Shown piece by piece: positions 29,566 through 59,849 of a stretch of 64,000 bases of DNA. Position numbers and translations under genes: made by a program. The notes beneath the pieces are model-generated. The model was not told where the DNA came from and ran no database searches. It saw only the letters and a program-made list of their open reading frames with translations. Numbering within the stretch: position 1 is the stretch's first letter; each line of letters opens with the position of its first letter. This DNA comes from a gamma proteobacterium SCGC AAA007-O20 (GTDB taxonomy: Bacteria > Pseudomonadota > Gammaproteobacteria > PS1 > Pseudothioglobaceae): assembly GCA_000213395.2 (NCBI GenBank), contig AFHY01000003.1, forward strand, positions 1 through 64,000, read 5' to 3'.

Positions 29566-30099
29566 TCAACTGTTATCCTTGTTGGTAAATTCTTCCATAG
29601 TGTGAAGCATTGTCCTTAAGCTGTCTATAGTAGTTTCGAATTCATCACTCGTTAACTCGGATACAGCAACATCTTCGATTTTATGATATTTTGAAAAGAC
29701 TTTTTCCATAAGCTCTTCACCAGGTTTGTTGATATGAACAACAACTCGTCTAGCGTCATTTGGGTGAGCTAGTCTTTGACAATAACCATGTTTTTCTAGT
29801 GTTATTAAAATTCCTGTCAATGTACTTTTTGCAATGCCAGCATTTTTGGCTAGTTTTGCAGTCTCAAGATCCCCCCAAACCCACAATACCCACATAACAA
29901 CAAAGCCAGAAAAGGATAGGTTAAATTCCTTAAAAACATGTTTTTCTGCATAACTCCTGATAATTGATGTAAGTCTGAAAGCATTAGAAATGATTGAGAC
30001 TGATCTTCCATATAGTCCAACTGAAATTAAGTGCTGCTTGGCTTTCTCTTCAGCACTTGTGGCTTTAGGATGTGATTTATTTGCAGACTTATCCATCAA
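29566..30099 (-). CDS. MarR family transcriptional regulator
   Basis: Winged-helix AKLAKNAGIAKSTLTGILITLEKHGYCQRLAHPNDARRVVVHI. Confidence 0.87.
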   Translation of the reverse strand: MMDKSANKSHPKATSAEEKAKQHLISVGLYGRSVSIISNAFRLTSIIRSYAEKHVFKEFNLSFSGFVVMWVLWVWGDLETAKLAKNAGIAKSTLTGILITLEKHGYCQRLAHPNDARRVVVHINKPGEELMEKVFSKYHKIEDVAVSELTSDEFETTIDSLRTMLHTMEEFTNKDNS

Positions 30100-30126
30100 C
30101 GATTCTCATTAAATAGTTAACTAGAG

Positions 30127-30927
30127 TTAAGTTAAATTTTCTCTAGCCAGAGTTCTACCACCCTTCCAAGACACACCGACTTGGCGGTAATAGCCCTGAA
30201 TTAGTTCCTCAGGTTCGAGTAAATGAAACTCCTCAACAGGTGAGGAGAACAATTCAAGCTCAAAGGAACCTTTAAAGGTTAGGCCAATCTCAGCGTCAAA
30301 ACCTGACATTGTGACCACTTCATTCAAACTGTCTTTCCCATTGCATTCAATTGCAGGCATCCAACGGTTGTGAAGCATTGGTAAAGCATTGACAAAACCA
30401 GCATGATCTGATTCTGCCTCAATAGTGAACTTAGCTTGAACTAGGCGATGATCATAAGCTGCTAAAGTGGCTCCAAAAATACCCCCAGGCTGAAGTCGAG
30501 GTCCGGCTTTTCCTACAGTAGTTGACCTTGTTAAATGGATAGAACCAATTTTTTTCGGATAACCCTGAAATTGACCACGAGCAGCTGAAAAGTCCTTATC
30601 TACCCAAATATATATACAACGTGAGTAGATTTTTCCTTGATATTTACAACGAACAACAAAAAACACCTCTTTATATTGAGCACGTACAGGATCTAATAAT
30701 TCATTAAAGTTATCACTGCAGCTTTGCCAATCTGCCCAAATAACAGCAACAGCTCCGGGGTCTTCATCAGCTAACTCAATTCCATCAGGCAAGAGTTCAG
30801 CTACACGGTCAGGATTAGTTCGATATTCTAAGGTTAACAAGTCTCCCGAGTAGTGCCAAGGCACATTAGGAATTAATGACGAATTACCTGTGTGAGTTCT
30901 GGGAAAGAGAAAACCTTGTAAAGACAT
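30127..30927 (-). CDS. Acetoacetate decarboxylase family protein
   Basis: FQGYPKKIGSIHLTRS around the ADC-type lysine; overall ADC-fold pattern. Confidence 0.8.
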   Translation of the reverse strand: MSLQGFLFPRTHTGNSSLIPNVPWHYSGDLLTLEYRTNPDRVAELLPDGIELADEDPGAVAVIWADWQSCSDNFNELLDPVRAQYKEVFFVVRCKYQGKIYSRCIYIWVDKDFSAARGQFQGYPKKIGSIHLTRSTTVGKAGPRLQPGGIFGATLAAYDHRLVQAKFTIEAESDHAGFVNALPMLHNRWMPAIECNGKDSLNEVVTMSGFDAEIGLTFKGSFELELFSSPVEEFHLLEPEELIQGYYRQVGVSWKGGRTLARENLT

Positions 30928-30965
30928 TTATATAGCAATTAGAATTATTAATAAACCTATGATAC

Positions 30966-30981
30966 CATTCGGGAACGAATG
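30966..30981. promoter_or_regulatory. Palindromic operator CATTCGGGAACGAATG
   Basis: CATTCG-GGAA-CGAATG, same TTCGnnnnCGAA core as sites at 37388 and 42891; divergent promoter region. Confidence 0.7.
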
Positions 30982-31054
30982 AAATTATCAAAATTTAAAT
31001 ATATAGCTTTGAAATTAAGTCATAATTTATCAATCATCATATATAATATATAAT

Positions 31055-31073
31055 CATTCGTACCCAAACGAAA
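31055..31073. promoter_or_regulatory. Candidate degenerate operator in the FAH promoter
   Basis: CATTCGTACCCAAACGAAAT, TTCG/CGAA half sites with 8-bp spacer, next to TATAAT. Confidence 0.4.
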
Positions 31074-31087
31074 TATAGGAATAAATC

Positions 31088-31978
31088 ATGCCAACAAAAG
31101 AATATCGGAAAATACTATTAAATGGACACTCGATTCAAGTTACCTTAGAGGGAGATGAGCTGGTTACTGAAGACGGAAAAAGTGTTGGCATCGAAGAAGT
31201 GCAACATCTCCCACCAACTCAACCCTCGAAGATTATATGTGTACATTTAAACTATGAAAGTCGCGTTAAGGAATATATAACAAAGCTACCACCGGCTCCA
31301 ACATATTTTCATAAACCTATCACTGCACTTAATAGCCATAAAGGCGATGTTGTAAGACCTGAACGCTGCAAATGGCTAAATTATGAAGGAGAGATTGCCA
31401 TAGTTATTGGTCAAAATTGTCGTAATATAAGCCCTGCTGATGCAGGAGAATACATTGCAGGTTATACAATAGCTAATGATTACGGTTTGCACGATTTTAG
31501 AGATACAGATGCAGGGTCAATGCTTAGAGTTAAAGGTTCAGATACGCTTTGCCCAGTGGGACCAGGTTTAGTTACTGGTTGGGATTTTCATAACAAAGGA
31601 ATCCGCACAATTGTTAATGGGAAAGTTATGCAAGACGCCAACACTAACGAGATGGAGTGGGATATGCACTATCTTGTCGCTGATATAGCCCGCAATATTA
31701 CTTTAGCACCAGGAGACCTACTACTCTCAGGAACACCTGCAAACAGTCGTCCCGTTGAACCAGGTGATGTTGTTGAAGTTGAGGTAGAAGGTTTGGGCCT
31801 GTTATCCAATACAATCGTTAATGGTGCTGCTATTCGTGATGATGTTGGCGCACAACCTTCTAGCTCTGAAGAGGTTGTTTCTACTGCCATGGGTGGTGAC
31901 TGGGAATTTCGTGGCAAAAGAGCAGCAGGTGGGCAAGGTGCGAAACATTATAAATCTGCTGTAGAAACCAAAAAGTAG
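31088..31978 (+). CDS. Fumarylacetoacetate hydrolase family protein (HpaG-like isomerase/decarboxylase)
   Basis: YEGEIAIVIGQNCRNISPADAGEYIAGYTIANDYGLHDFR...LLLSGTPANSRPVEPGDVVEVEVEGLG. Confidence 0.85.
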   Translation: MPTKEYRKILLNGHSIQVTLEGDELVTEDGKSVGIEEVQHLPPTQPSKIICVHLNYESRVKEYITKLPPAPTYFHKPITALNSHKGDVVRPERCKWLNYEGEIAIVIGQNCRNISPADAGEYIAGYTIANDYGLHDFRDTDAGSMLRVKGSDTLCPVGPGLVTGWDFHNKGIRTIVNGKVMQDANTNEMEWDMHYLVADIARNITLAPGDLLLSGTPANSRPVEPGDVVEVEVEGLGLLSNTIVNGAAIRDDVGAQPSSSEEVVSTAMGGDWEFRGKRAAGGQGAKHYKSAVETKK

Positions 31979-32004
31979 TTGATTATTATCTCTCGGAAAA
32001 AATA

Positions 32005-33282
32005 ATGATCAAAACAGTTAGCCCAAATAACAATGACGATATCAATGCAGATATTACTAGTCACGATACTTTTGAAAAAGGCTTTCCACATTTGGCATTT
32101 AAACAGATGCGTGATGAAGACCCCTGTGCCTGGATAGATGAGACCGATGGTGGAAGCGGTTTCTGGTCAGTTAGCCGATATAAGGACATCAAAGAGGTTA
32201 ACGGTTTACCGAAAATTTTTAGCTCAGCTCAAGGAATTCGTCTAGAAGAGCAATCGAAAGAAGAATACGAGGCTCGCAAGACATTCCAAGAAACTGACCC
32301 ACCAGTCCATACCCGTCAACGAATGATGTTCCATCGTGGATTTACACGTAAACTAATCACAACCTATGAACCTATGATTCGTGATATTTGTAACGATATT
32401 ATTAATGAAGCGGTTGACTTGGGTGAAGTCGATGCCACTAAACAGATTGCTAGAAAATTACCAATGAGAATGTTGGGCCGTGTTGTTGGTACTCCAGATG
32501 AGGATGCAGAGTGGCTAGTTTCAAGAGGTGACTCAATGATTGCTAACAGTGACCCAGATTTTACAGACTATGTGATTGACAAGGTTGATACAGATGAATA
32601 TCGATTTTTGCCTTTTCGCTCCCCTGCTGGTAAGGAAATTTATGATTATGGAGAAAAACAAAAGAGGCTTCGTGAAGATCACGATATGGGTGATGTGATG
32701 TCAATGTTATTACAACCAAACAAGCAGGGCGACAAGCTATCAGACCTCGAATTTAAAAACTTCTTTGCACTCATGGTTGCTGCTGGAAATGATACAACCC
32801 GATATTCGATGGCATCTTCAATGCATGCTATAGCCAATAATCCCTATATTTTTGACTGCCTAAAATCTGCCCCTGATGATGCCCCAGTTTGGGCTAGCGC
32901 TACCGAAGAGTTTATCAGATGGGCTTCACCAACTATGCACTTTAGACGCACTGCAACGGAGGATTATGAACTTCATGGGAAGCAAATCAGAGAGGGAGAC
33001 AAAGTCGCTATTTGGTTTACTTCAGGAAATTACGATGAGCGCAAGTTTCTCGACCCATACAGTCTTATTTTAGAGAGAGAAAATAATCAACATATCGCTT
33101 TTGGTCAAGGTGGCCCTCATGCATGCTTGGGTATGTGGCTTGCAAGGCTAGAAGTTCGTGTGGCTATGCAGGAGTTACTTAAAAGGATTTCGAAAATTGA
33201 GCAAATCGGCCCCGAAAAATACTTACGCTCTAATTTTATTCGGGGAATAAAAAACTTGCCTGTTAAGTTAACATCAGCATAA
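32005..33282 (+). CDS. Cytochrome P450
   Basis: I-helix AAGNDTTR; EEFIRWASPTMHFRRTA; heme motif FGQGGPHACLG. Confidence 0.95.
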   Translation: MIKTVSPNNNDDINADITSHDTFEKGFPHLAFKQMRDEDPCAWIDETDGGSGFWSVSRYKDIKEVNGLPKIFSSAQGIRLEEQSKEEYEARKTFQETDPPVHTRQRMMFHRGFTRKLITTYEPMIRDICNDIINEAVDLGEVDATKQIARKLPMRMLGRVVGTPDEDAEWLVSRGDSMIANSDPDFTDYVIDKVDTDEYRFLPFRSPAGKEIYDYGEKQKRLREDHDMGDVMSMLLQPNKQGDKLSDLEFKNFFALMVAAGNDTTRYSMASSMHAIANNPYIFDCLKSAPDDAPVWASATEEFIRWASPTMHFRRTATEDYELHGKQIREGDKVAIWFTSGNYDERKFLDPYSLILERENNQHIAFGQGGPHACLGMWLARLEVRVAMQELLKRISKIEQIGPEKYLRSNFIRGIKNLPVKLTSA

Positions 33283-33314
33283 TATGGTATTAGATAATTA
33301 AGTAAAGGAGAAAA

Positions 33315-34601
33315 ATGAACAATTACAGAAGAGTTCGAGTACTATTTTCAGATCACTTGGGGTTAGCGAGAGGAAAATATCAACCTATAAATACTGCGGC
33401 TGGTGGTGAGGCAAGATTTTGTATTAGCCTTTACGGTCTTACCTATGATAAGCAGTTATTGCCAGTACCAGGTAGCGGCTTACTTGATGGATTGCCTGAT
33501 GTGGTTGCTAAATTCAAAGAAGAAGATGTTCGCCCTTCCTGGGAGGCTGACACGGGTGTCGTTATTCCAGATATTGAATTTAAAGGAGAACCGTTGGCAC
33601 ATTGTGGACGTAATGTATTGAAAAAGACAATAGCTCAGTTTGAAGGAATAGGTTTAACACCATATGTCGGAATAGAGCTAGAAGCCTATGTTTTTCAAAA
33701 GAATAGGTACGGCAAATGGGTTCCCTACGACACTCCAGGAGCCTACGTCTATGGTACTGGTTCAACAGTTGATCCTGCAGGTCTGATTGATGAGGTTTGG
33801 GAACAAGCTGAAGCTTGTGGTATTGAGCTAGAATCATTTAATTCAGAGTTTGATTCACCGCAATTTGAATTGACTCTAAAGTACGACAAGGCTTTGGAAG
33901 CGGTTGATCAGATATTCCTATTTAAAGCAATGGCAAAAGAGATTTTTGAACAGAATGGTTACTTATTAAGTTTTATGCCAAAACCTTTATCGAAAAATGG
34001 CGGAAGTGGAATGCACGTCAATTTTAGTTTCAATGACAAAAAAGGTAATAATGTCATTTATGATAAGTCTGCCAAAGATGGCTTGTCTGATATTGCAAAA
34101 AAATCGATTTCTGGTCTTGTACAGCACCATGAAGGTATGTCAGCTTTACTTGCGCCAACAGTTAATTCTTATCGAAGATTGTTGCCTGCAAGTCTTTCAG
34201 GATATTGGGCAAATTGGGGGTACGACCATCGAGGAGTGACAACTAGAATACCTGATGAACGTGGCGCAGGCACAAGAATTGAATTCAGAATGGCTGATTG
34301 CGCTGCAAATCCATATACTGCAGTTGCAACAGTTCTTCAAGCTGCTAAGTTGGGTATAGAGAATGACTATGAATTGCCTGACGCAGAAACTCTAGACTGC
34401 CTTGAATCTCAAAGCACAGATAGACATGTTCCAGATAACTTGGCTCTTGCCTTGGAGGCTTTAAATGCTGATAAAGATTTATGTCAAGCGGTAGGTCAAG
34501 AGCTGGTAGATAATCATACTGCTATCAAGGAGCAAGAGTGGCAAGACTATTCTGCTCATACAACAGATTGGGAATTTGACCAATACCTGAAATATATTTA
34601 G
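33315..34601 (+). CDS. Glutamine synthetase-like (putative gamma-glutamyl-amine ligase)
   Basis: FSDHLGLARGKY; KNGGSGMHVNFSF; NSYRRLLPASLSGYWANWGYDHRGVTTRIPDERGAGTRIEFRMADCAANPYTA. Confidence 0.88.
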   Translation: MNNYRRVRVLFSDHLGLARGKYQPINTAAGGEARFCISLYGLTYDKQLLPVPGSGLLDGLPDVVAKFKEEDVRPSWEADTGVVIPDIEFKGEPLAHCGRNVLKKTIAQFEGIGLTPYVGIELEAYVFQKNRYGKWVPYDTPGAYVYGTGSTVDPAGLIDEVWEQAEACGIELESFNSEFDSPQFELTLKYDKALEAVDQIFLFKAMAKEIFEQNGYLLSFMPKPLSKNGGSGMHVNFSFNDKKGNNVIYDKSAKDGLSDIAKKSISGLVQHHEGMSALLAPTVNSYRRLLPASLSGYWANWGYDHRGVTTRIPDERGAGTRIEFRMADCAANPYTAVATVLQAAKLGIENDYELPDAETLDCLESQSTDRHVPDNLALALEALNADKDLCQAVGQELVDNHTAIKEQEWQDYSAHTTDWEFDQYLKYI

Positions 34602-34610
34602 GATTGGGTA

Positions 34611-36074
34611 ATGTCAAATAGAATTTCTATAAAAGGCGTTGAGGTTTCTACGGATCACTATATTAATGGAAAGCGAGTTTCGTCTGATAAAAAATTTACC
34701 GTCATCAATCCAAATAACCCTAGCGAGGTTCTCGCCGAAGTCTCAAGAGGTGATGCGGAAATAGCTAAACTTGCAGTTTCTGCTGCCCGAGAAGGGTTTA
34801 ATATTTGGTCAGAAATGAGTGTTGATGAACGTGCATCGATTATGCACAGACTAGCTGATCTCATCGAGTCTAATATCGACAATATTTCTCTTATTGAGTG
34901 CTTGGATATGGGTATGCGCCATGAAAGTCTAAGAAACCGTGTCATTCCAAGGGGCGCTAGAAATTTTCGTTCATATGCAGATATAGCTAAAGAATATAAA
35001 CCAAGGAAATGGCATTCAAATACTACCAAGAATGAAATTCAACGTATGCCTAGCGGAATTAGTGTCATTATTACTCCCTGGAATGCTCCATTTATGTTGT
35101 CTACATGGAAATGTGCACCCGCCCTCGCTGCAGGCAATAGTGTAATTTTGAAGCCAGCTGAATGGTCACCATTGTCTGCATCATTGTTGGGTGATTTGAT
35201 TGATGAAGCAGGTTTTCCAGCTGGAGTTTTTAATATTGTCCAGGGTATTGGTGAAGAAGTTGGAGCGATACTAGTATCAGACTCAAATGTGAATCGTGTT
35301 TCATTTACCGGTTCCCCTGAGGCGGCACGCCATATTGGTAAATCAGCTGCTGAAAATATCACCCCATTCACTGGTGAGTTAGGTGGAAAAAGTCCATTAA
35401 TCATTTTTCCAGATGCAGATCTAGAAGTGGCTGTTGCAAAGGCGGTAGGTCAGTTTGATGATTCTGGTCAGATTTGTCTTGCGGGAACTAGATTACTAGT
35501 GCATTCATCCATAAAAAATGAATTTTTAAATCGCTTCTTAGAACTAACTGCCAAACAAAAACTAGGTCCAAGTTTTGATGACGAAACTGAAATTACCCCG
35601 ATGATCCACCCTGAGCACCTTCAAAGTGTTGCTGGTTTTGTTGACCGAGCTAGAATCAACGGAGACAAGATTCTGTGCGGTGGAAAGGTATTAAAAAATG
35701 GCAAGTTGTGGTACGAACCAACTTTAATCGAGCCTGTTTCTAATCAATCTGAAGTGGTTCAAAAAGAAATTTTTGGTCCAGTTTTGACACTTCAAACATT
35801 TAACACTGAATCAGAAGCAATCGAGTTGGCAAACAGTACTGAATATGGTCTTGCCGGAATGCTCTATACCAAGAATCGCGACATCGCTGAACGAGTTGGA
35901 CGTGCAATTCGCGCAGGCACGGTTTGGGTTAACTGTTTTCTTATTCGTGACCTGACAGCACCATTCGGTGGTTTTGGTCTGAGTGGTATTGGACGAGAAG
36001 GTGGTGATTATGGAATTGATTTTCATAGTGACTTAAAAACCTTTCAAATACTTGATGATTCTTTATCTGAGTAG
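34611..36074 (+). CDS. Aldehyde dehydrogenase (HpaE-like)
   Basis: ITPWNAPFMLSTWKCAPALAAGNSVILKPAEWSP; FTGELGGKSP; GQICLAGTRLL; GFGLSGIGREGGDYGIDFHSDLK. Confidence 0.9.
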   Translation: MSNRISIKGVEVSTDHYINGKRVSSDKKFTVINPNNPSEVLAEVSRGDAEIAKLAVSAAREGFNIWSEMSVDERASIMHRLADLIESNIDNISLIECLDMGMRHESLRNRVIPRGARNFRSYADIAKEYKPRKWHSNTTKNEIQRMPSGISVIITPWNAPFMLSTWKCAPALAAGNSVILKPAEWSPLSASLLGDLIDEAGFPAGVFNIVQGIGEEVGAILVSDSNVNRVSFTGSPEAARHIGKSAAENITPFTGELGGKSPLIIFPDADLEVAVAKAVGQFDDSGQICLAGTRLLVHSSIKNEFLNRFLELTAKQKLGPSFDDETEITPMIHPEHLQSVAGFVDRARINGDKILCGGKVLKNGKLWYEPTLIEPVSNQSEVVQKEIFGPVLTLQTFNTESEAIELANSTEYGLAGMLYTKNRDIAERVGRAIRAGTVWVNCFLIRDLTAPFGGFGLSGIGREGGDYGIDFHSDLKTFQILDDSLSE

Positions 36075-36101
36075 TATTTTTATTTTATTAGGATGAAGTA
36101 A

Positions 36102-36431
36102 ATGACAACCGTTAAATATATATTGGAAGATGGCTCTGAAGTCTTGATTGAAGCAGATGTAGGGCAAAATTTAATGCAATTGGCCCTTGATAATAATCTT
36201 GCTGGTATTGAGGGTGCTTGTGGTGGCTCCTGTATGTGTGGTACTTGCCACGTTCTAATTGAATCAGTTAAAGGAAAGCAGCTTGAAGAAAGAGATGAAA
36301 TGGAAACAGTAATAATAGAAATGGAAATCGATGAGCTTGCTCCGATTAATAGTCGCTTGGGATGTCAGATTACTATACAAGAAGGAATGGAGTCAATCAC
36401 GGCACGTATAGCCAATCTCAGTAATTTCTAA
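36102..36431 (+). CDS. 2Fe-2S ferredoxin (adrenodoxin/putidaredoxin type)
   Basis: GACGGSCMCGTCHVLIE. Confidence 0.92.
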   Translation: MTTVKYILEDGSEVLIEADVGQNLMQLALDNNLAGIEGACGGSCMCGTCHVLIESVKGKQLEERDEMETVIIEMEIDELAPINSRLGCQITIQEGMESITARIANLSNF

Positions 36432-36448
36432 TATATCTGGCGAAATAT

Positions 36449-37321
36449 TTAAGTCCAACCCTCAACAGGTTGATCAAACCAAAGATGAACTTGTCCTGTT
36501 CCTGTGGCGTTTTCGTAGTCACCAAACTGGCGACCTTTAGCTCGACAATTCACTCCACCAATAGCTTCTGCCATAATTAAATAATGTCCAAATTTACCCT
36601 CTGGAGAGTATTTATTATATTCATCCATTCCATCAAATACAGAGCGATGATCACCTTTTTTTAACCAATCAATTCGCTTCTCATCAGCTTTCCTTGCCCC
36701 TGATGTAATGATGTGAATAGGGTCAGAAGCTTCGTGTTTCTCGAGTTCATCAAGTGGCCAAAATCTATGACTTAATCCTCCACTAGCTAATATCACTACA
36801 CGCTTATCAGATTCCTCTATGGCTGCTTTCAAGCCCCTACCAACCTTCATAAAATGCTCTTTCTTAGCAGTACCACAAATACTCATAGAAAGCCACTGTT
36901 CATTACCTTGGAGATACTCAAGCAAATTAACAGTTGGATAATGTATTGGTAGGTGTTCATTGTCATTGGCAGAGCAACGCACCCCATTTTCATTGACACG
37001 CTCTACAATATTATTTGCTAATTCTGGGTTGCCAGTTATATCGAACGGAATGCTGTTCATTGTCCGAGGCAACTCCTCCGATGTATAAAAACCTTGACGC
37101 CTTTGATGGCTGGTGACAATGAACTCAACAATCGTAAACCAATGCGTGTCAATAACAATAACAACATCGGGATTGAGTGGCTCTAAGATTTCACGTCGCA
37201 TATCTTGAAAACCTGTCACTAACGAGATTTCTTTACCTTCATTTAGAGCATACCGCTGCTCTTTAGTCATCATGATTGTCGGCGCATGGGATACTAATCC
37301 AACCCCTACTATTTCACCCAA
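36449..37321 (-). CDS. LigB-family extradiol ring-cleavage dioxygenase (HpaD class III-like)
   Basis: VGLVSHAPTIMM; VIDTHWFT; HLPIHYPTVNLLEYL; ILASGGLSHRFW. Confidence 0.85.
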   Translation of the reverse strand: MGEIVGVGLVSHAPTIMMTKEQRYALNEGKEISLVTGFQDMRREILEPLNPDVVIVIDTHWFTIVEFIVTSHQRRQGFYTSEELPRTMNSIPFDITGNPELANNIVERVNENGVRCSANDNEHLPIHYPTVNLLEYLQGNEQWLSMSICGTAKKEHFMKVGRGLKAAIEESDKRVVILASGGLSHRFWPLDELEKHEASDPIHIITSGARKADEKRIDWLKKGDHRSVFDGMDEYNKYSPEGKFGHYLIMAEAIGGVNCRAKGRQFGDYENATGTGQVHLWFDQPVEGWT

Positions 37322-37387
37322 ATTTATTCTCCAAAAAAATCAAAAAACTCTCTAACTGCGTCAGCTCAATGGAATAAGCAAAAAATT

Positions 37388-37401
37388 GTTCGTATACGAA
37401 C
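37388..37401. promoter_or_regulatory. Palindromic operator GTTCGTATACGAAC upstream of the LigB-like gene
   Basis: Perfect 14-bp palindrome, identical to 42891-42904; follows minus-strand TTGACT-N17-TATATT. Confidence 0.8.
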
Positions 37402-37445
37402 GTTATTAATCAATATACTATAACCTCAACTCTGAGTCAAGGAAA

Positions 37446-38165
37446 CTAAGAATAAAAAAACTCCATAATCCACTGAGCCCAGATACTTGAATCAGACTTA
37501 CCATTTTCAATACGCAGCTTAGCATTTTCAAGTTCTTTTTCGGTTAGCACATTTTTAGTAACTTCAAGAAAGTTATACATAGCGCGTTTTGGTTGTTCTG
37601 GATGCCCCTGAAGACAAGCGATATTATTGCCAAGAGTATAAGCAAAATCTGGATAGTCTTTAGTGCTAGCAAAACTTATTGCGCCTTCAGGTAATTTAGT
37701 GACTCTCTCTTTATTAAAATGATATAGGTCAGTAGTATCTAATGTATTCTTCATCCAAGGAAATTTTTTTTTGATTTCTAAAGGGAAGCTCCCTATCATC
37801 CAGCCTTTTTCGTTATTACCAACAACACCGCCAAAATACTTTGCAATGAGTTGATGACCGAAACATACCCCGACGATTGGTTTATTTTTATTGTCTGCCT
37901 GGCCCACAAACTCCGAAAGCATTTTGATCCAATCATGATTATCATGCACACTAACTGGGCTTCCTGTCAACAAGTAACCATCATAACTCTCAATATTGTC
38001 AGGAAACTCGTACTCCGAAACATAAAAAATATCAAATTTTGCATTGACATTTTCAGGCGCTAGTAAGTCAACAAATTTCTGGCCATCAGTAACACCATTG
38101 TCATCACGCCAATGAAATTTTGGCACTGAGTCAAGTATCGCAATTTTAATTGGCTGCTCGTTCAT
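37446..38165 (-). CDS. Class I glutamine amidotransferase-like protein
   Basis: YLLTGSPVSV; PIVGVCFGHQLIAKYFGG; CLQGHPEQP. Confidence 0.85.
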   Translation of the reverse strand: MNEQPIKIAILDSVPKFHWRDDNGVTDGQKFVDLLAPENVNAKFDIFYVSEYEFPDNIESYDGYLLTGSPVSVHDNHDWIKMLSEFVGQADNKNKPIVGVCFGHQLIAKYFGGVVGNNEKGWMIGSFPLEIKKKFPWMKNTLDTTDLYHFNKERVTKLPEGAISFASTKDYPDFAYTLGNNIACLQGHPEQPKRAMYNFLEVTKNVLTEKELENAKLRIENGKSDSSIWAQWIMEFFYS

Positions 38166-39731
38166 CTACCATCTACCAATAATAATGCCTGCCTTCTCGT
38201 CTGCTTCAGGCGAGCGTTTATAAAGTTCATCTAAATGAACCACGGTTCTTTGCTTTCTTTGTCTTAGCCATGTAAATAATTGCTTTTCAAAGTCAGCTAA
38301 ACGCTCAGATTGGTCTTGATTTTCAGCTAAATCATTGAACTCATTAGGGTCGTTCAACAAGTCAAACAATTGTGCTCGGAAGCCTTCCCAATAAATATAC
38401 TTCCATTGAGTATTTTTTATCATGTAGCCTCGACACTTATAAGGGTGATGGTCAAGAATTTGTCTGGCACCACGATCGCTATAATCTATTTCGGCAAAAA
38501 CTGTATCACGCCAAGTTGGATTATCACCAAAAAGCAATGGAACAAGTGATCGACCCTCCATTCTATTAGATGCATATGAGCCTCCCATCGTTTCGACAAG
38601 GGTCGGCACTACATCAACGGATTCAATCATTCTATTTTCAGTAGATCCACGAAGATTTTCTGGCATTTCAGGCTCAACAATAATTAATGGAATGCGAATA
38701 GAAGGCTCATGAAATAAGTCCTTCTCACCAAGCCAATGATCACCAAGATAGTCACCATGATCACTGGTAAAAATAATTAAAGTATTTCTACTTAAATTAT
38801 TTTCATCCAAAAATTTTATAAGTCTACCAATATGATGGTCAATTTCACTTATTAAGCCCATATAGGTCGGAATTACGTGTCTACGTTTTTCCTCATCAGT
38901 GTAGTTTCGAGAATATTCAAGTTGCTGAAAAGCAGAAAAGACGGGGTGAGGATTTTTCATCTCGATCTTATCCTTAACAACCCCTATAACATCACTGTCT
39001 TTATACATTTTGTGGTACGGCGAGGGAGCAAGCAAAGGCCAATGAGGATTGAAGTAGCTCAAATGCAAACACCATGGCGTATCCTTATTTCGAGTAGAAA
39101 TATACTCCATTGCCCGATTAGTTAAAAAAGCTGTTTCTGAATGCTGTGCTTCGATATCTGAAGGCAAATGAGCATTTCTCATTTCCCATCCACTATATTT
39201 CAAACCGGATTTAGTGGCCGTATTGGCTGCGTTTTCCCAAGGATTATGCATCTCATAGCCTTGAGACAATAAATAATCGTTATAACCAACTCCATCATGG
39301 ACAATTGGCTCTGGATATAAACCTCCATAATGCTCAAAAGGGGTAAAACCATTGTCATGACGATTTAAAGCTATTTCAGAATCTAGTGGTATCTTTAAAC
39401 GTGACAAGCTTTCTTCATTAGGACGGCCTTCACTTTTACCTACAACATGCGCTTCGCAACCCAACTCACGCATGTAATCGCCTAAGGTAACTTCGTCCAC
39501 TTTTATTGGGTCATCATTAGCCATCACCCCATGGCTAGTCATATAACGACCTGTATAAAAACTTGCCCTGCTAGGACCACAGAGAGAGGCATTACAATAA
39601 CTATTCTCAAACAACATACCTCGACTGGCAAGCATATCAATATTTGGTGTTTTTAAGCTGGAATGGCCAGTACAACCAAGATAGTCATGCCTTAGCTGGT
39701 CACACATAATAAATAAGATATTTTTAGTCAT
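38166..39731 (-). CDS. Sulfatase / phosphonate monoester hydrolase-like, formylglycine-type
   Basis: LFIMCDQLRHDYLG; formylglycine motif LCGPSRASFYTGR; TLIIFTSDHGDYLGDH. Confidence 0.9.
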   Translation of the reverse strand: MTKNILFIMCDQLRHDYLGCTGHSSLKTPNIDMLASRGMLFENSYCNASLCGPSRASFYTGRYMTSHGVMANDDPIKVDEVTLGDYMRELGCEAHVVGKSEGRPNEESLSRLKIPLDSEIALNRHDNGFTPFEHYGGLYPEPIVHDGVGYNDYLLSQGYEMHNPWENAANTATKSGLKYSGWEMRNAHLPSDIEAQHSETAFLTNRAMEYISTRNKDTPWCLHLSYFNPHWPLLAPSPYHKMYKDSDVIGVVKDKIEMKNPHPVFSAFQQLEYSRNYTDEEKRRHVIPTYMGLISEIDHHIGRLIKFLDENNLSRNTLIIFTSDHGDYLGDHWLGEKDLFHEPSIRIPLIIVEPEMPENLRGSTENRMIESVDVVPTLVETMGGSYASNRMEGRSLVPLLFGDNPTWRDTVFAEIDYSDRGARQILDHHPYKCRGYMIKNTQWKYIYWEGFRAQLFDLLNDPNEFNDLAENQDQSERLADFEKQLFTWLRQRKQRTVVHLDELYKRSPEADEKAGIIIGRW

Positions 39732-39745
39732 TCAATTAATGTAGA

Positions 39746-41227
39746 TTAGTTAGTTTTCCTTCTGTATTGGCGCCATATTGACCAAAAATGAATTAATAGT
39801 GCTATCACAATTATCGCAAAAATTGTGCCTGATATGGGTCTATTTATATAGTCAAACAGAGTATCGATACGTGCCTGACTGGCACGAAACCTTTGTTCCA
39901 TAATAGTGCCTAATACCATTCCAAGAATGATGGGCACAATAGGTAAATTAAGTCTCTTTAAAGCGTAACCAAATATACCAAAAACTGCACACATTATGCA
40001 ATCAATCATAGAATTTCGTAGCGTATAAACACCAACAAAAGAGAGACCCAAAATTGAGACACCTAAAAAACGCTGTGGTATCTGAATTATTTTGAGTAGG
40101 TACTTTGTAGCAAAAAGCAAGAAAATCATCACAATAATATTAATTACAATTAAACTTTCATATAGTCCATACACAAAATCAAGATGTCTTACAAACAAAT
40201 CTGGACCCGGAATGATGTTGTGAACATAAAAAACTGACAGCATCATTGCGGTTAAAGCTTCGCCAGGAATACCGAGTGCTAAAAGTGGAATCATGGCTGC
40301 AGCTGGAACGGCATTGTTGGCAGCTTCAGAGGCGATAATGCCTTCTGGAGCCCCTTTACCAAATCTCTCAGGTTTGTCAGAAATGCCTCTGGCTATATTG
40401 TAAGAAAAAAATTGTGCTAAGAACTCACCTACACCAGGAATAATTCCCATTATCACTCCCATCGCTGAGGAAATGAGCGCAACAGTTTTATATTTAATTA
40501 GATCGAAAAAGCCTTCACTTTTTTTACCTTTTAAACTAGGCATTGACACTCGTCTATCGTTACCAATAAGTAGTATGAAAGCTTGAGAAACTGCAAATAA
40601 ACCGAGCAATACGGTAATTAAATCAAAACCTGATAAGAGCCACGATTGGTCAAAAGTAAATCGCTTTGAATATTTGACACTTTCCATTCCGATAGTACTT
40701 ATAAACATTCCAAAGAAAACTAGCATTCCAGCTATTAAGGTTTGTTTTCTATGTGAAATAACAACCAATACCAATCCCAACAAGGCTGCCATTAGTATAT
40801 CCCTAGAGCCAAATAGTGGGGCCACCTTGGCTATTAAAGATGTCATAAAAATGAGAGCTATGATTGAGAAAATACCGCCAGTAAATGAAGACCAATAAGC
40901 CAGAGTGATTGCTCGCCTTGCTTTATTGTCTTTCGTCATGCTGTAACCATCATAAGTAGTCAATGCATTGACAGGTGTACCAGGAGTATTAATCAAAATT
41001 GCAGGAATCGCACCACCATACATTGCAGAACCATAAATACCCAATAGCACAGTAATACCAATAATTGGGTCCATACTGTAGGTTGCAGGGAGCAAAATAG
41101 CAATCGCCACGGCTGGTCCGACGCCTGGAATCGCGCCTATAATCACTCCACCTATTGAACCAACTAATATAGCTACCCAGACATCCCATCGAAGGAATAT
41201 GTCAAAACTTGAAAGAATTAATTCCAT
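39746..41227 (-). CDS. Tripartite tricarboxylate transporter, TctA-type large permease
   Basis: GVIIGAIPGVGPAVAIAILLPATYSMDP; GIYGSAMYGGAIPAILINTPGTPVNALTTYDGY. Confidence 0.95.
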   Translation of the reverse strand: MELILSSFDIFLRWDVWVAILVGSIGGVIIGAIPGVGPAVAIAILLPATYSMDPIIGITVLLGIYGSAMYGGAIPAILINTPGTPVNALTTYDGYSMTKDNKARRAITLAYWSSFTGGIFSIIALIFMTSLIAKVAPLFGSRDILMAALLGLVLVVISHRKQTLIAGMLVFFGMFISTIGMESVKYSKRFTFDQSWLLSGFDLITVLLGLFAVSQAFILLIGNDRRVSMPSLKGKKSEGFFDLIKYKTVALISSAMGVIMGIIPGVGEFLAQFFSYNIARGISDKPERFGKGAPEGIIASEAANNAVPAAAMIPLLALGIPGEALTAMMLSVFYVHNIIPGPDLFVRHLDFVYGLYESLIVINIIVMIFLLFATKYLLKIIQIPQRFLGVSILGLSFVGVYTLRNSMIDCIMCAVFGIFGYALKRLNLPIVPIILGMVLGTIMEQRFRASQARIDTLFDYINRPISGTIFAIIVIALLIHFWSIWRQYRRKTN

Positions 41228-41236
41228 GAATTCTAA

Positions 41237-41764
41237 TCAAAAATAAATCATAAAAAATGTTGCCCAGCCATCTGGAAGATAATCATAAATTGCACCACTG
41301 GCTATCTTCACTTGTAACAAAGATTTAAATACAATCACAATTCCAAATCCCGTTGCCAAACTAACCCAGAACATTAAAAGAGTTCGATAACCTGCCCTAA
41401 TGGTTAGTAGCGAGAAAAACAATAAGGTTGAAAGTAAATAGCCTGCTAAAGGAACAGACCAAACATACAATACAAAATAAAAAACAAACTCTAAAGGCCT
41501 TAACCAGGATGATAATTCATTCAATTCACCCTGAACCTGGCCTAGTTGAATTTTATAGCTTCGCCAAATCTGAATACTATAAAGCAAACCAAAAAGAGCC
41601 ATTCCGACTAAACAAAATGTGGGCCAAAGTCTTGGCTGTTTAACTAATGGGACGCCATCAAACCACTTTGTTTCAAAGGGAATTGATACCAGTAAAACCA
41701 GTACAATAAACAACATCAGCATTGCAAAGACTAAATCACCTGCTTGATATTCTTCTCTACCCAT
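41237..41764 (-). CDS. Tripartite tricarboxylate transporter, TctB-type small permease
   Basis: Four TM segments, position between TctA and TctC genes. Confidence 0.85.
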   Translation of the reverse strand: MGREEYQAGDLVFAMLMLFIVLVLLVSIPFETKWFDGVPLVKQPRLWPTFCLVGMALFGLLYSIQIWRSYKIQLGQVQGELNELSSWLRPLEFVFYFVLYVWSVPLAGYLLSTLLFFSLLTIRAGYRTLLMFWVSLATGFGIVIVFKSLLQVKIASGAIYDYLPDGWATFFMIYF

Positions 41765-41802
41765 AAAGACCTATAAAATTATGATTAGTTTATATTTTAA
41801 AT

Positions 41803-41836
41803 AAAAAAAAGGAAGGTAAATGAACCTTCCTTTTCT
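41803..41836 (-). terminator. Intercistronic intrinsic terminator between tctC-like and tctB-like genes
   Basis: Minus strand AAAAGGAAGGT-TCATTT-ACCTTCCTTTTTTTT. Confidence 0.8.
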
Positions 41837-41853
41837 TTGTAGTTTTATCTTTT

Positions 41854-42792
41854 CTAAAGACCGGCAATAGTAGCCATGGTCGCCCTGTCTTTATTGATTT
41901 GTGCAGTTGAAGCATCAGCATCCATCCAGTAGATTAATGCACCGCTGTTGGCCGCAACTTCTTGCGCCCTATCACTTAGCATTGATCTCTTGGCAACAGC
42001 AGTAATCTTATCTTTAACATCCTGTGGTGTGCCTGCTCCGACAAATAAGCCGTTCCATAAAAATATGTCTAACTCAGGTATCAATTCACCAATTGTTGGT
42101 GTGTTCGGTACCTTAGAAATACGCTCATTTGTTATAGAAACTAAAACTTTAACGTCATTTAAGCATGGCAGGATTAGCTGAATCGTTGTATTAATAACGT
42201 CTGCATCACCTGAAGCTAAAGTATTACAGTCCAACATATCAAAGGCAGCATCTGAACCCCATTCGAAGCCCATTATCTTAGCTGCAGCTTTGGTCACCTG
42301 GGTTGGTGCCAGTGGGTCACCAAAGTGACCTAGCGTTACTTTGTTACTTTTAGCATGATAAGCTAATTGATGTAGTGAACTATATGGAGCATCGCCTGCT
42401 ACAGCTATCACAAATGGATAGGTTAGAAAAATCCCTAGAGGCTCAAAAGTTTCTTTAGTTAAACCCTCTATTCCAATTTCTGGTCCTACAACCGGTACAC
42501 CGATTACAAATGAACCTACCATGGAACCATCAGGATCTGCCGCCGCTACTTCCATTGCACCTGGGAATGGACCACCGCCACCACCTGGTTTATTAACAAC
42601 CGCTGCAGCAACACCATATTCAGCCTGAAAGTCTTCCGCAATCATTCTAGTTAAAACATCTTCAAGATCCCCAGGAGGCCATGGAACAACAAAAGTCACA
42701 GGTTTATCAGGATAATCAGCCTGTGCAATTGGCATACCTACCATAAAAGTTGAAAGTGCAAATAACACTCCAATAAAAATTTTATTCATCAT
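41854..42792 (-). CDS. Tripartite tricarboxylate transporter substrate-binding protein (TctC/Bug)
   Basis: Signal peptide; YPDKPVTFVVPWPPGDLEDVLTRMIA...VVNKPGGGG. Confidence 0.92.
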   Translation of the reverse strand: MMNKIFIGVLFALSTFMVGMPIAQADYPDKPVTFVVPWPPGDLEDVLTRMIAEDFQAEYGVAAAVVNKPGGGGGPFPGAMEVAAADPDGSMVGSFVIGVPVVGPEIGIEGLTKETFEPLGIFLTYPFVIAVAGDAPYSSLHQLAYHAKSNKVTLGHFGDPLAPTQVTKAAAKIMGFEWGSDAAFDMLDCNTLASGDADVINTTIQLILPCLNDVKVLVSITNERISKVPNTPTIGELIPELDIFLWNGLFVGAGTPQDVKDKITAVAKRSMLSDRAQEVAANSGALIYWMDADASTAQINKDRATMATIAGL

Positions 42793-42821: not shown

Positions 42822-42893
42822 TAAAAAAAACGTCTCACAAATAATCCAGTGGATTATTCTTTTCACTCAATTAAGTCATATTAAAGAGACGTT
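42822..42893 (-). other. Structured 5' leader of the tctC-like mRNA, attenuator-like
   Basis: Minus strand AACGTCTC (42893-42886) pairs with GAGACGTT (42836-42829) followed by T8; enclosed hairpin AATAATCC-ACT-GGATTATT (42858-42840). Confidence 0.55.
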
Positions 42894-42904
42894 CGTATAC
42901 GAAC
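42891..42904. promoter_or_regulatory. Palindromic operator GTTCGTATACGAAC upstream of the tctC-like gene
   Basis: Perfect 14-bp palindrome identical to 37388-37401, just downstream of minus-strand TTGATA-N17-TATATT. Confidence 0.8.
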
Positions 42905-42915: not shown

Positions 42916-42982
42916 AACATAATACTTTTCAATTATCAAGTTATTCAATTCAATTAAAACATAATACTTATCAATTATCAAG
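42916..42982. repeat. Two direct 25-bp repeats (42916-42940, 42958-42982), 42-bp period, carrying promoter elements
   Basis: AACATAATACTTTTCAATTATCAAG versus AACATAATACTTATCAATTATCAAG, one mismatch. Confidence 0.85.
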
Positions 42983-44084
42983 AACGTGATCTAACTCTCT
43001 CAGGGTCATAAACTGGAGTTGCCACGATTTCTGCCTGACCATCGCTTTCCATACTTAGATCTAGTCTATTACCCACTGACGAGTTTTCCCGATTGATTCG
43101 AGCTAATCCAAGAAATTGTCCGTCTAGGTAAGGCGAAGGAATTGCCATTGTAACTATACCTACCTTCTTGTTATTGTCCATTAATTCGACGCCATCGTAT
43201 TCACCTTCCCCCGGCAATATAACACTAACGATATTTAATGAAGGGTTTTTCTGTGCTTCGATTAGAGCATCCTTTCCATGAAAATTATCCTTGTTAAGAT
43301 CAACTGACCAAGCCATTCGGCATTCGTAAGGGGTCATCGTATGATCATATTCGACTTCACCCATAATCAAGCCAGCTTCGATACGACACATCATTACGCA
43401 AGCAGCTCCAGCTGGTAATAAACCAAGTGGCTCTCCTACTTTAAAAAGAGCATCCCAGAATGCTTGCGCACTATCGACAGGTAGCATGATTTCATAACCA
43501 AGTTCACCAGTGTAACCGATTCGGCTAATTTGAACTTTCATGCCGGCCATATCGACATCAGTAATGAAATGATACCAACGAAGCGCATCATTACTTATAT
43601 CGCTACTTGTTAGTTTTTGTAATATTTCTCTGCTTAAAGGCCCTTGAACTGAGAGCTGAGCAAGTTCATCACAACGCTCACTAATGGTGACATTATTTGT
43701 ACGATAATGATCCAGTAAATCACCAACTATTGGATTTGCTCCAATAATTCGAACAAGTTCGGGACCGTATACAAAAACCGTGCAATCATCGACCATTTTG
43801 CCTGCTTCACTAACGACGACACCGTAGGCAATAGTTCCCGGTTTCATCTCACTTATATCGCGCGAAAATATATTATTCACGGTTTGTATTGCTCCCGCGC
43901 CTTCTACGTCCCATTTGAGAAGCATAGAAAATTCAAACGCTGCAGCTTGATTCCGAACTGCTGCACATTCAACATTAGGATCACCCCAGGTTAATGGGAC
44001 TGCATAACCGAATATATCAATCCATTCGACAACTCCATCAGGATAGGATGATGAAAATGGGGTTTGTTTTAATTCATCTGACAT
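42978..44084 (-). CDS. GcvT/DmdA-like THF-dependent aminomethyltransferase family protein
   Basis: ISRIGYTGELGYEIMLPVDSAQAFWDALF; folate-binding family pattern; paired with TMADH-like gene. Confidence 0.87.
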   Translation of the reverse strand: MSDELKQTPFSSSYPDGVVEWIDIFGYAVPLTWGDPNVECAAVRNQAAAFEFSMLLKWDVEGAGAIQTVNNIFSRDISEMKPGTIAYGVVVSEAGKMVDDCTVFVYGPELVRIIGANPIVGDLLDHYRTNNVTISERCDELAQLSVQGPLSREILQKLTSSDISNDALRWYHFITDVDMAGMKVQISRIGYTGELGYEIMLPVDSAQAFWDALFKVGEPLGLLPAGAACVMMCRIEAGLIMGEVEYDHTMTPYECRMAWSVDLNKDNFHGKDALIEAQKNPSLNIVSVILPGEGEYDGVELMDNNKKVGIVTMAIPSPYLDGQFLGLARINRENSSVGNRLDLSMESDGQAEIVATPVYDPERVRSRS

Positions 44085-44096: not shown

Positions 44097-46250
44097 TTAA
44101 TGATATGGTTTAACCTTTATCACCTCAGCATCAAGCTGATAATCCTTTTCTGTCGCATTTATGAGACGACGTTCACGAATGAAAGGCTTATGTTGGTCGG
44201 GATTATCTGAATCAAATTCCCTTGCAAGACGAGTTCCAGAAAAAGTTGCCTGTGCAATTACGTTTGGCGTGTGAGCGTCACCGATTAAATGTATAGACTT
44301 AATTCCAGCATTGGACATTTCATCAGGCGACCCTTGTAGTTGATCATATAAATCGCAATTAGAAGTTCTGTGCGTGACTAACATAATACTATCGTATTCG
44401 ACAGTCATTTCCTCACCTTTCCATATATCCACAAGAGTTGCATTTCCGTTTTCAACAGCTACTGCGACATGCTGATGAATCGTTGTAACACCGAGCTCAA
44501 GAAGTCGCATTAACATTCGTTGCTCTTCTAAAACCAGACGGAGGTAAGGGCCAACGGTTTCTCCATAAGTAGCGTATGTTACTTCATGGCCATTTTCTGC
44601 AATAAGTTCCGCCATAGCAGAACCCATATAATAAGGATCATTGTCGATTACTAATACTCGTTTTCCGAGTTTTTTCCCATGTACACAATACTGTTCTGGA
44701 TTACAAATTTCCGGCTTTGAAGCGTCAGCACCAGCTATATAATCATGAAGTAGTGATGACATACCCGTTTCGTCCCAGTTAGAACCGGTTGCGAAAACAA
44801 TGCGCTCAGCTCCACATTCAAGAACATCTTGATAATTAAGCCGATTATTCAAGATAATTTGTACATTGGTTTTTGTTCTAATTTGCGTTTCCCGCCAATC
44901 AATAACACGCTTCCAAGCCCCAAAATTAGGCAGTTTAGAAACCCAACGTAAATGACCACCTATTTCAGCTTCAGCTTCAATTAGATGGACAGTATTATAG
45001 CCACGAAGACCGAGAGTCATCGCACACTCAAGTCCAGCAGGGCCTGCCCCAACAACAACAATTGGTAGATCAGGATTTTTTGTTGGAATATATTTTTCAG
45101 GATGCCATCCCCTACGATATTCTTCACCAGAAGTTGGATTCTGAGTGCACCAAATCGGCGGCCCACCTTTTTCCCATCGAGAAACACAAATATTGCAACC
45201 AATACATTCTCGGATATCATTGTATCGACCTTCCTCTATTTTTTTTGGCAGAAATGGGTCGGCAATAGATGGACGAGCTGCCCCAATAATATCGCACTGA
45301 CCTGAATTTATTGCTTTAATCATAACTTCCGGATCTGTAAAGCGACCAACATTTATAACTGGTTTTTTAGAGGCTTTTTTTGCATGTTGGGTATACTGGG
45401 CTTGATGATTTGAATCAAAGAACCGTGAAGATCCTGCATCCTCTCCCCAGTTTAGGGTGCCAATATTTATATCCCAATAATCAACCAGATCGTCCATTGC
45501 CTTGATGAAAGCTACGCCCTCATCTTCAGCTTTTGTTCCCAAATCTCCAAGACCAAAAGGTTCAGGCAAGGTATCAATTGGAAAACGTATTCCAATTGCA
45601 CAGTCATCAATTTCTTCTCTCATCATCTCTAACAATTCTCGAGTAAAACGACATCGGTTTTCAAAGGAACCACCATATTCGTCAGTACGTTTGTTGTGAG
45701 AACGGTACAAGAAATGCTGAGGTATTGTCGCGAGACCAACGAAAAGAGTCAGCAAATCAAAACCTGCTGCCCTTGCTCTTAAAGCTCCATCCACATGTTC
45801 ACGTTGTATTTGTCGAATTTCTTTAATTGTCATCGCCCTTGCACTTGCCATAGGTTCAAATTCATGTGGTATTTGTGAGGCTGCTCGAGCTGGTTCACGG
45901 GTTTCTGCATTGAAGCCAAAGGAAGTGGCATGAGTAAGCTCCACACCAGCAAGGCCACCATGAGCATGGATACTATCGCACATCAAGGATAAATTCCTAA
46001 CGTCACCTTCATCAATAATTTTACTTCCAACCCATGGATGAATATCACTATCATGTGTTATAAAACAAACTTCCGTAAAAACTGCCCCCCAACCACCTTC
46101 AGCTTTCATTCCTCGAAAAGATGCCTGCATTCCTGGTTTATCTGATCCAGCTCCATTACAGTGAGGTACTTGCCAGAATCGGTTTTTAAGGGTTTTTGGT
46201 CCAAGTTTGATTGGTTCAAAAAGAATATCGTGACGTTTTTCTCTAGCCAT
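44097..46250 (-). CDS. Trimethylamine dehydrogenase-like flavoprotein (Old-Yellow-Enzyme N-domain, 4Fe-4S, FAD/NAD C-domain)
   Basis: MAREKRHDILFEPIKLGPKTLKNRFWQVPHCNGAGSDKPG; CIGCNICVSRWEKGGPPIWCTQNPTSGEEYRRGWHPEKY. Confidence 0.9.
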   Translation of the reverse strand: MAREKRHDILFEPIKLGPKTLKNRFWQVPHCNGAGSDKPGMQASFRGMKAEGGWGAVFTEVCFITHDSDIHPWVGSKIIDEGDVRNLSLMCDSIHAHGGLAGVELTHATSFGFNAETREPARAASQIPHEFEPMASARAMTIKEIRQIQREHVDGALRARAAGFDLLTLFVGLATIPQHFLYRSHNKRTDEYGGSFENRCRFTRELLEMMREEIDDCAIGIRFPIDTLPEPFGLGDLGTKAEDEGVAFIKAMDDLVDYWDINIGTLNWGEDAGSSRFFDSNHQAQYTQHAKKASKKPVINVGRFTDPEVMIKAINSGQCDIIGAARPSIADPFLPKKIEEGRYNDIRECIGCNICVSRWEKGGPPIWCTQNPTSGEEYRRGWHPEKYIPTKNPDLPIVVVGAGPAGLECAMTLGLRGYNTVHLIEAEAEIGGHLRWVSKLPNFGAWKRVIDWRETQIRTKTNVQIILNNRLNYQDVLECGAERIVFATGSNWDETGMSSLLHDYIAGADASKPEICNPEQYCVHGKKLGKRVLVIDNDPYYMGSAMAELIAENGHEVTYATYGETVGPYLRLVLEEQRMLMRLLELGVTTIHQHVAVAVENGNATLVDIWKGEEMTVEYDSIMLVTHRTSNCDLYDQLQGSPDEMSNAGIKSIHLIGDAHTPNVIAQATFSGTRLAREFDSDNPDQHKPFIRERRLINATEKDYQLDAEVIKVKPYH

Positions 46251-51408: not shown

Positions 51409-51446
51409 CCTTTGTGATTATTTCTTTTAGTATTTAGACTATCCAA

Positions 51447-53362: not shown

Positions 53363-53380
53363 ATATAGAGTTTTAAATTA

Positions 53381-54343: not shown

Positions 54344-54413
54344 TAACTTTGGTCTTTGTTAAAAAATTGTGGCAACAACAGTCTTCATTATATTAGATTT
54401 TCTTCCCCATTAA

Positions 54414-55682: not shown

Positions 55683-55695
55683 GCGAGGGATTAAC

Positions 55696-57075: not shown

Positions 57076-57251
57076 TCCTTATATAAAACAGTGTAAATAA
57101 TCTTCAACGAATTATATTACCAAAAATAATAAAGTGTTATAGTGTAATCCATTTTTGCTTTTTGACAATAATTAATTTAATATAATCCGTTCAAGAATTG
57201 TAATTCGACCTACAAATATCAATCAAAAAAATGATTAGTGAAAGTTAATCC

Positions 57252-58610: not shown

Positions 58611-58686
58611 TGGCAACTTCTGAATTGTGGTTACAAAAGAGTCTTTTAATTAGCAATAATTAAAAGTTTAATAATAAAGGAGAGAA

Positions 58687-59784: not shown

Positions 59785-59799
59785 AACTGCACTATCATT

Positions 59800-59837
59800 A
59801 CCTCCATGGTTTTATTGCCATGGAGGTATTTTTTTTT
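59800..59837 (+). terminator. Intercistronic terminator between potF and potG
   Basis: ACCTCCATGG-TTTTATTG-CCATGGAGGT-ATTTTTTTTT, 10-bp perfect stem. Confidence 0.9.
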
Positions 59838-59849
59838 ATGTTATAGGTT

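Follow-up and report, generated by a model that had tools for sequence, protein, structure and literature searches.

A gene cluster spanning positions 29566 to 42792 of the 64-kb window analysed here (contig C164, the whole stretch of DNA under study) appears, on a somewhat better than even estimate, to encode functions for taking up an arylethylamine that is sulfated or anionic in some other way, probably of the tyramine or dopamine type, and for degrading it aerobically, with glutamate serving as a protecting tag. The window belongs to a 62 per cent complete assembly of 1.03 Mb in 166 contigs, and the nearest relatives of this genome are Candidatus Thioglobus-type marine Gammaproteobacteria. 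The kinds of enzyme involved are known individually, and together they form a real, conserved and apparently co-regulated catabolic cluster; all reactions, the order of steps and the substrate are inferred from sequence, gene context and one structure model. In the open-access literature we found no description of this gene combination, of gamma-glutamyl-tyramine or gamma-glutamyl-dopamine catabolism, or of Thioglobus in connection with homoprotocatechuate or tyramine.

In the proposed route a TctABC transporter would take up the substrate and a sulfatase would act on it, after which a glutamine synthetase (GS)-like ligase would convert the arylethylamine to its gamma-glutamyl amide. A cytochrome P450 and its ferredoxin would add the second ring hydroxyl (gamma-Glu-tyramine to gamma-Glu-dopamine), the LigB dioxygenase would cleave the catechol in 2,3-extradiol fashion, an aldehyde dehydrogenase (ALDH) would oxidise the semialdehyde and the FAH protein would then isomerise and decarboxylate it. 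An MppR-like enzyme of the acetoacetate decarboxylase (ADC) superfamily would hydrate the product and split it by retro-aldol cleavage; carrying a catechol that bears CH2CH2NH-gamma-Glu through homoprotocatechuate chemistry in this way is predicted to yield pyruvate and gamma-glutamyl-4-aminobutanal. The latter is the substrate of PuuC and an intermediate of the Puu pathway, in which the product of PuuC is hydrolysed by PuuD. The route would end with a PuuC-like ALDH followed by a gamma-glutamyl amidohydrolase, a role assigned here to a glutamine amidotransferase (GATase), releasing 4-aminobutyrate (GABA) and glutamate. By analogy with putrescine, the glutamate tag would keep the free amine from cyclising onto aldehyde or keto intermediates. 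Whether this is a widespread and hitherto undescribed pathway, in which glutamate shields the amine of tyramine or dopamine during ring hydroxylation and meta-cleavage and pyruvate, GABA and glutamate emerge via a Puu intermediate, is in our estimate evenly balanced.

The seven-gene core

An earlier note on this DNA had described HpaG-, HpaE- and HpaD-like enzymes, a P450, a ferredoxin, a GS-like protein and an ADC-family protein at 30127-37321. All seven open reading frames (ORFs) are intact at these coordinates and match the named families, each above its Pfam gathering score.

30127-30927, minus strand: ADC-superfamily enzyme, MppR-like (Pfam ADC PF06314, 175 bits)
31088-31978, plus strand: FAH/HpaG-like isomerase/decarboxylase (FAA_hydrolase PF01557, 189 bits; PDB 1gtt HpaG, 206 bits)
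32005-33282, plus strand: class I cytochrome P450, CYP124/125-like group (p450 PF00067, 70 bits; PDB CYP125MRCA, 311 bits; AGNDTT motif)
33315-34601, plus strand: GS-like protein, putative amine gamma-glutamyl ligase (Gln-synt_C PF00120, 285 bits)
34611-36074, plus strand: HpaE-like semialdehyde dehydrogenase, an ALDH (Aldedh PF00171, 490 bits; TIGR02299, 478 bits)
36102-36431, plus strand: 2Fe-2S ferredoxin, proposed electron donor of the P450 (Fer2 PF00111, 42 bits; cysteines 40, 44, 46, 49, 88)
36449-37321, minus strand: LigB/HpaD_Fe-like extradiol dioxygenase (LigB PF02900, 116 bits)

The five plus-strand genes are separated by 9-32 bp, and the TTG start codon of LigB is preceded by a good ribosome site (TTTGGAGAATAAATTTG). 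The nearest named families are HpaG TIGR02303 for FAH, HpaE TIGR02299 for the ALDH and HpaD TIGR02298 for LigB, which bears out the homoprotocatechuate-like character proposed in the earlier note, but all three proteins fall below the equivalog cut-offs (198 against 276, 478 against 638 and 138 against 316 bits, respectively). FAH, ALDH and LigB thus share superfamilies with HpaG, HpaE and HpaD but are not members of the Hpa equivalogs. Cys289 and Glu256 of the ALDH are conserved. HpaB/HpaC, HpaH and HpaI are absent among the scanned window proteins, the rest of the 62 per cent complete genome not having been searched for these.

Compared with GlnA from the same genome, the GS-like protein retains the glutamate/ATP core but no longer has the ammonia-site Asp found in the FDGSS motif or the flap Glu found in GFEAP; GlnA itself retains both motifs, whereas the GS-like protein and its aligned relatives carry other residues there. 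It scores 223 bits against the GlnA equivalog TIGR00653 (cut-off 429) and 226 bits against the PuuA family (cut-off 650), and glutamine synthesis was rejected as its role because the ammonia-site Asp and flap Glu are gone. PDB chain 8wwu, which we take to be NpaA1, is a distant match (101 bits), and methylamine ligases and archaeal GS score 142-172 bits. The same kind of residue loss is known in amine-glutamylating GS-like enzymes (glutamyl organic amide synthetases, GoaS) that do not use ammonium (PMC11335346). In its GS fold and replaced ammonia-site residues the protein matches the GoaS functional class, and we infer that it is a gamma-glutamyl ligase for an organic amine. C26 hydrolases whose best match is gamma-Glu-GABA hydrolase are present in many of the related loci that carry the GS-like gene.

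The ADC-superfamily protein had been taken for a decarboxylase, and its closest relative is instead MppR, an aldolase-type member of the superfamily; acetoacetate decarboxylation was rejected as its likely role on this ground. It scores 196 bits against the MppR family TIGR04460 (cut-off 380) and 180 bits against PDB 4jm3 (MppR), with K125, the candidate Schiff-base lysine, aligned to chain residue 156, and K125 and K126 are kept in at least 97 per cent of 66 homologues. Independently, an aldolase role has been suggested for MppR-like ADC proteins in the meta pathway by which the archaeon Saccharolobus would degrade phenol (PMC7820114). Because its closest relative, MppR, is of the aldolase type, the enzyme more likely performs the hydratase/aldolase step, where it would replace HpaH and HpaI.

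H12, H60 and E241 of LigB are invariant and, by LigAB numbering, are presumably the 2-His-1-carboxylate ligands. The AlphaFold (AF2) model of the protein has a predicted local distance difference test score (pLDDT) of 90.7, and its best fold match is 8iq8, a 3,4-dihydroxyphenylacetate (DHPA) 2,3-dioxygenase, with template modelling (TM) scores of 0.87/0.89. By Pfam score, ligand residues and fold, LigB is an LigB-type extradiol dioxygenase.

Conservation and replacement of parts

A GS-based scan of genome contigs returned 80 loci from several phyla. Within the fetched flanks, 46 of these have five or six of the core families GS, P450, FAH, ALDH, LigB and ADC. Represented among the 46 are Alpha- and Gammaproteobacteria, Acidimicrobiia, Nitriliruptoraceae and Acidobacteria, and gene order is identical in the relatives L001, L002, L004 and L005. 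Novosphingobium sp. EMRT-2 has LigB, P450, GS, ALDH, ADC, FAH, a second ALDH and a ferredoxin together. For a comparison that did not start from GS, each of FAH, GS and LigB served as a query against 247 genomes from the class to which G379 belongs. As read from the result tables, FAH (at least 63 per cent identity) is present in 17, GS in 16 and both in 15, and LigB (at least 49 per cent) in 17, of which 16 also had FAH. Fisher tests give about 6e-21 for FAH-GS and 5e-23 for FAH-LigB, values that are overstated since related genomes are not independent. Among 369 Gammaproteobacteria, the window's own genome alone yielded FAH at E 1e-60, which makes FAH an accessory trait in that class.

In Chloroflexota and Deinococcota, five loci (L010, L011, L013, L016, L018) carry the GS, P450, ADC and FAH families with a VOC-type protein and no LigB. 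The best NCBIfam match of the VOC-type protein was HpaD TIGR02295 in both loci tested, searches of four of these genomes (G371, G372, G373, G375) gave no LigB relative, and the FAH of these loci forms a separate, well-supported clade in the FAH tree. Because a VOC-type HpaD stands in for LigB, extradiol catechol cleavage appears to be kept though the enzyme is replaced.

The two halves of the core are also met apart. Relatives of ADC, FAH, ALDH and LigB with no GS/P450 nearby occur at L111, L112, L113 and L127-L129 in three related genomes (G444, G460, G480) and look like a sister meta-cleavage module. At L006 (8703-13480) and L007 the GS/P450 pair is accompanied by a ferredoxin, a reductase and a MarR protein. 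Ruegeria sp. TM1040 (L140) has a GATase-P450-GS arrangement next to TctCBA and a PuuC-like ALDH, and the stretch displayed contains no genes for ring cleavage.

Genes that could supply the amine or process the product recur in related clusters. Four unlike types of pyridoxal phosphate (PLP) decarboxylase lie within them, RhbB/MfnA-like in Acidimicrobiia and Nitriliruptoraceae, aromatic amino acid decarboxylase-like in Chloroflexi, a third type in Deinococcales and a fourth in Streptomyces lunaelactis. This fourth protein is most similar to tyrosine decarboxylases (TIGR03811, 129 bits against a cut-off of 905), and its best PDB entry is 5hsi, a 'putative decarboxylase'. A protein of the aromatic amino acid decarboxylase type, scoring 363 bits against DOPA decarboxylase, is encoded on another contig of the window's genome; no related catabolic genes were seen on reading its neighbourhood. 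A Pfam PF00282 member is present in 13 of 13 related genomes searched against 8 of 14 controls, a count that is weak on its own. Two ALDHs are encoded in the plasmid clusters of both Streptomyces canus and S. lunaelactis: the first resembles HpaE, and the second matches PuuC best among NCBIfam families (568 and 554 bits against a cut-off of 850) and adjoins an annotated gamma-Glu-GABA hydrolase. A PuuC-like ALDH (538 bits) is also encoded elsewhere in the window's genome.

A larger, apparently co-regulated unit

The unit is larger than the earlier note described and takes in a MarR regulator as well as an amidotransferase, a sulfatase and TctABC, with operator-like sites in common.

29566-30099, minus strand: MarR-family regulator, probable regulator of the cluster (PF01047, 51 bits; orthologue near the core in most complete loci)
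30968-30979: operator-like palindrome TTCGGGAACGAA, within the ADC/FAH divergent promoter
31057-31072: related inverted repeat TTCGTACCCAAACGAA, directly before FAH
37388-37401: operator-like palindrome GTTCGTATACGAAC, 14 bp, upstream of LigB and conserved in relatives
37446-38165, minus strand: class I glutamine amidotransferase-like protein, proposed gamma-glutamyl hydrolase (PF00117; PRK05665, 135 bits; catalytic motifs GVCFGHQ and GHPE)
38166-39731, minus strand: type I sulfatase (PF00884, 165 bits; CGPSR motif at 51)
39746-41227, minus strand: TctA, large permease subunit of a tripartite tricarboxylate transporter (tblastn 62 per cent to annotated TctA of L140)
41237-41764, minus strand: TctB, small permease subunit (tblastn 37 per cent to annotated TctB of L140)
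41854-42792, minus strand: TctC, solute-binding protein (tblastn 72 per cent to annotated Tct binding protein of L140)
42891-42904: second GTTCGTATACGAAC operator-like palindrome, upstream of TctC and conserved in L002, L004 and L005

The palindrome GTTCGTATACGAAC occurs exactly twice in the whole assembly, before LigB and before TctC, and because it is common to these two promoters the TctC-TctB-TctA-sulfatase-amidotransferase operon joins the unit. The window has three TTCGNNNNCGAA sites, and all of them lie in the promoter gaps of ADC/FAH, LigB and TctC (0.48 expected from shuffles; a count of three, at any position in the window, came up in 3 of 100 shuffles). A promoter scan gave no excess over shuffles. 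Elsewhere in the Proteobacteria, related palindromes precede the P450 (L006/L007) and the ALDH (L131) or sit between LigB and P450 (L130 and L133). The core, the transporter genes, the sulfatase and the amidotransferase would thus apparently constitute one regulon through their shared operator-like sites. Homologues of the added genes keep similar company elsewhere: that of the amidotransferase adjoins GS/P450 in L010, those of TctABC and the sulfatase are also in a Kiloniellaceae cluster (L023/L132), and TctABC lies near LigB-P450 in L130. A strong hairpin, AAAAGGAAGG...CCTTCCTTTT, at 41807-41834 between TctC and TctB is a likely attenuator after the binding-protein gene.

Weighing the explanations

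Several observations weigh against a tagged-arylethylamine route as drawn above. The nearest solved relatives of the P450 hydroxylate lipids or steroids rather than phenols, and no HpaF-type isomerase was identified in the scanned window proteins, beyond which none was sought. The sulfatase accompanies the cluster in some Proteobacteria only, and no sulfatase maturase of the formylglycine-generating enzyme (FGE) type was found in the 62 per cent complete genome. The window's cluster adjoins neither a PLP decarboxylase nor a PuuC-like ALDH, both being on other contigs. In Streptomyces, the S. lunaelactis plasmid stretch examined has no P450 and the GS-like proteins of both clusters are only 33-36 per cent identical. 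Finally, L006 and L007 carry the GS-P450 pair without ring-cleavage genes, and the pair therefore has other uses, serving some other amine route as well.

A rival reading of the cluster is oxidative deamination, in which a gamma-glutamyl-arylethylamine would be hydroxylated at the carbon beside the nitrogen to give an arylacetaldehyde and glutamine, and the ring genes would act on free 3,4-dihydroxyphenylacetate, following ordinary homoprotocatechuate chemistry. The separate pair in L006, L007 and Ruegeria L140 and the closeness of LigB, FAH and ALDH to homoprotocatechuate enzymes would suit this scheme, but we consider it unlikely: glutamine release needs no gamma-glutamyl hydrolase, yet one is present in many loci and adjoins the PuuC-like ALDH in Streptomyces, the catechol would still have to be made with no second hydroxylase conserved, and two aldehyde steps would face only one conserved core ALDH. 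It is improbable, too, that the same logic serves another substrate, whether an amine of the aniline type, an aromatic amine with an aminomethyl group or a longer chain, or some catecholamine besides tyramine and dopamine. In favour of such substrates, GS-like ligases do accept anilines and 1-naphthylamine (PMC11335346), and the specificity of the amine pocket is not readable from sequence. Against them, neither a PLP decarboxylase nor a hydrolase of the gamma-Glu-GABA type should be required for glutamylation of the aniline type. The presumed NpaA1 chain, for its part, is only distantly matched by the GS-like protein.

That two separate functions share the locus, an alkylamine GS/P450/ferredoxin unit and an ordinary aromatic meta-cleavage unit, is quite improbable. 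Each half is found without the other nearby (the ring-cleavage genes in G444, G460 and G480, GS/P450 in L006/L007), but the 17 genomes with FAH and the 16 with GS overlap in 15, both parts share palindromes in Thioglobus, with such a site between LigB and P450 in two other Proteobacteria, and the association recurs in Chloroflexi/Deinococcota, where the FAH lineage is distinct and the dioxygenase is of another type. The earlier suggestion that an amine-bearing aromatic is activated, oxidised and ring-cleaved along a modified homoprotocatechuate route gains support from co-conservation, from the swapping of dioxygenases and from the PuuC-, PuuD- and decarboxylase-type neighbours; the proteins did not fall into unrelated families, nor did the core lack co-conservation, the two outcomes that had been named as counting against it.

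Neighbouring genes

A methyl-bearing substrate, also raised earlier, finds no support in the cluster. A trimethylamine dehydrogenase (TMADH)-like flavoprotein (44097-46250, 702 bits to PDB 1djn) and a GcvT-type protein (42978-44084) lie nearby under a different palindrome, ACCGTCAATTGACGGT, in a promoter beside their own TetR at 46398, and seem to form an N-demethylation unit of their own. The nearby GcvT and OYE-type genes had prompted the idea that the substrate is a methoxy- or methyl-aromatic; it was rejected since the OYE-type protein is TMADH-like and the pair has this different palindrome next to its TetR gene. GcvT at 46 per cent identity is also near the S. canus cluster. At 2867-4279 a single open frame fuses an ABC-3 permease domain to the central and C-terminal portions of S-adenosylmethionine synthetase, the N-terminal portion of MetK being absent; it may be an artefact of assembly and not a genuine fusion. 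Further along, 50437-63999 holds a polyamine/GABA-type set (CsiD, DAO oxidases, a GATase, an agmatinase-like protein, a class III aminotransferase, a second GS-like protein, a Pot-type ABC transporter and an SSADH-like ALDH) that could supply later steps for the cluster.

Comparison with known systems

If the proposed route is correct, gamma-glutamyl protection of an amine and extradiol ring cleavage merge into a single tyramine/dopamine-type pathway, the MppR-like enzyme gains a role as a combined hydratase/aldolase, and an organic substrate is added to the repertoire of oceanic Thioglobus relatives. Lineages that carry the cluster and lend themselves to direct testing include plasmid-bearing Streptomyces and Novosphingobium strains.

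The Hpa pathway has an extradiol dioxygenase, a semialdehyde dehydrogenase and an FAH-type isomerase/decarboxylase of the same families, whereas the scanned window proteins include no HpaBC, HpaH or HpaI and the present cluster has a GS-like ligase, a P450 with ferredoxin and an MppR-like ADC enzyme instead. The MppR/Sbi00515/Swit_4259 branch of the ADC superfamily provides the best family and PDB matches and the aligned lysine; the member described here differs in sitting within a ring-cleavage cluster, as in the Saccharolobus proposal (PMC7820114). The GoaS enzymes (AtdA1, TdnQ, NpaA1, Ipu ligase) likewise combine a GS fold that lacks the ammonia-site residues with a place in an amine-degradation cluster, but here the ligase is partnered with a P450 and extradiol genes. 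Aniline-type GoaS members work with a Rieske dioxygenase, and the piperidine/morpholine P450 loci of mycobacteria hold a P450, a ferredoxin and a GS-like gene together and are not known to include ring-cleavage genes. No PuuB-type oxidase was found in the window's cluster, and the PuuA-PuuB-PuuC-PuuD set is incomplete there. The Puu pathway (PuuA-PuuC-PuuD) nonetheless resembles the proposed one in gamma-glutamylation of the amine, in the PuuC-like ALDH and PuuD-type hydrolase of related clusters and in the predicted intermediate gamma-glutamyl-4-aminobutanal, the difference being that this aldehyde would arise from ring cleavage and not from oxidation of gamma-glutamyl-putrescine by PuuB.

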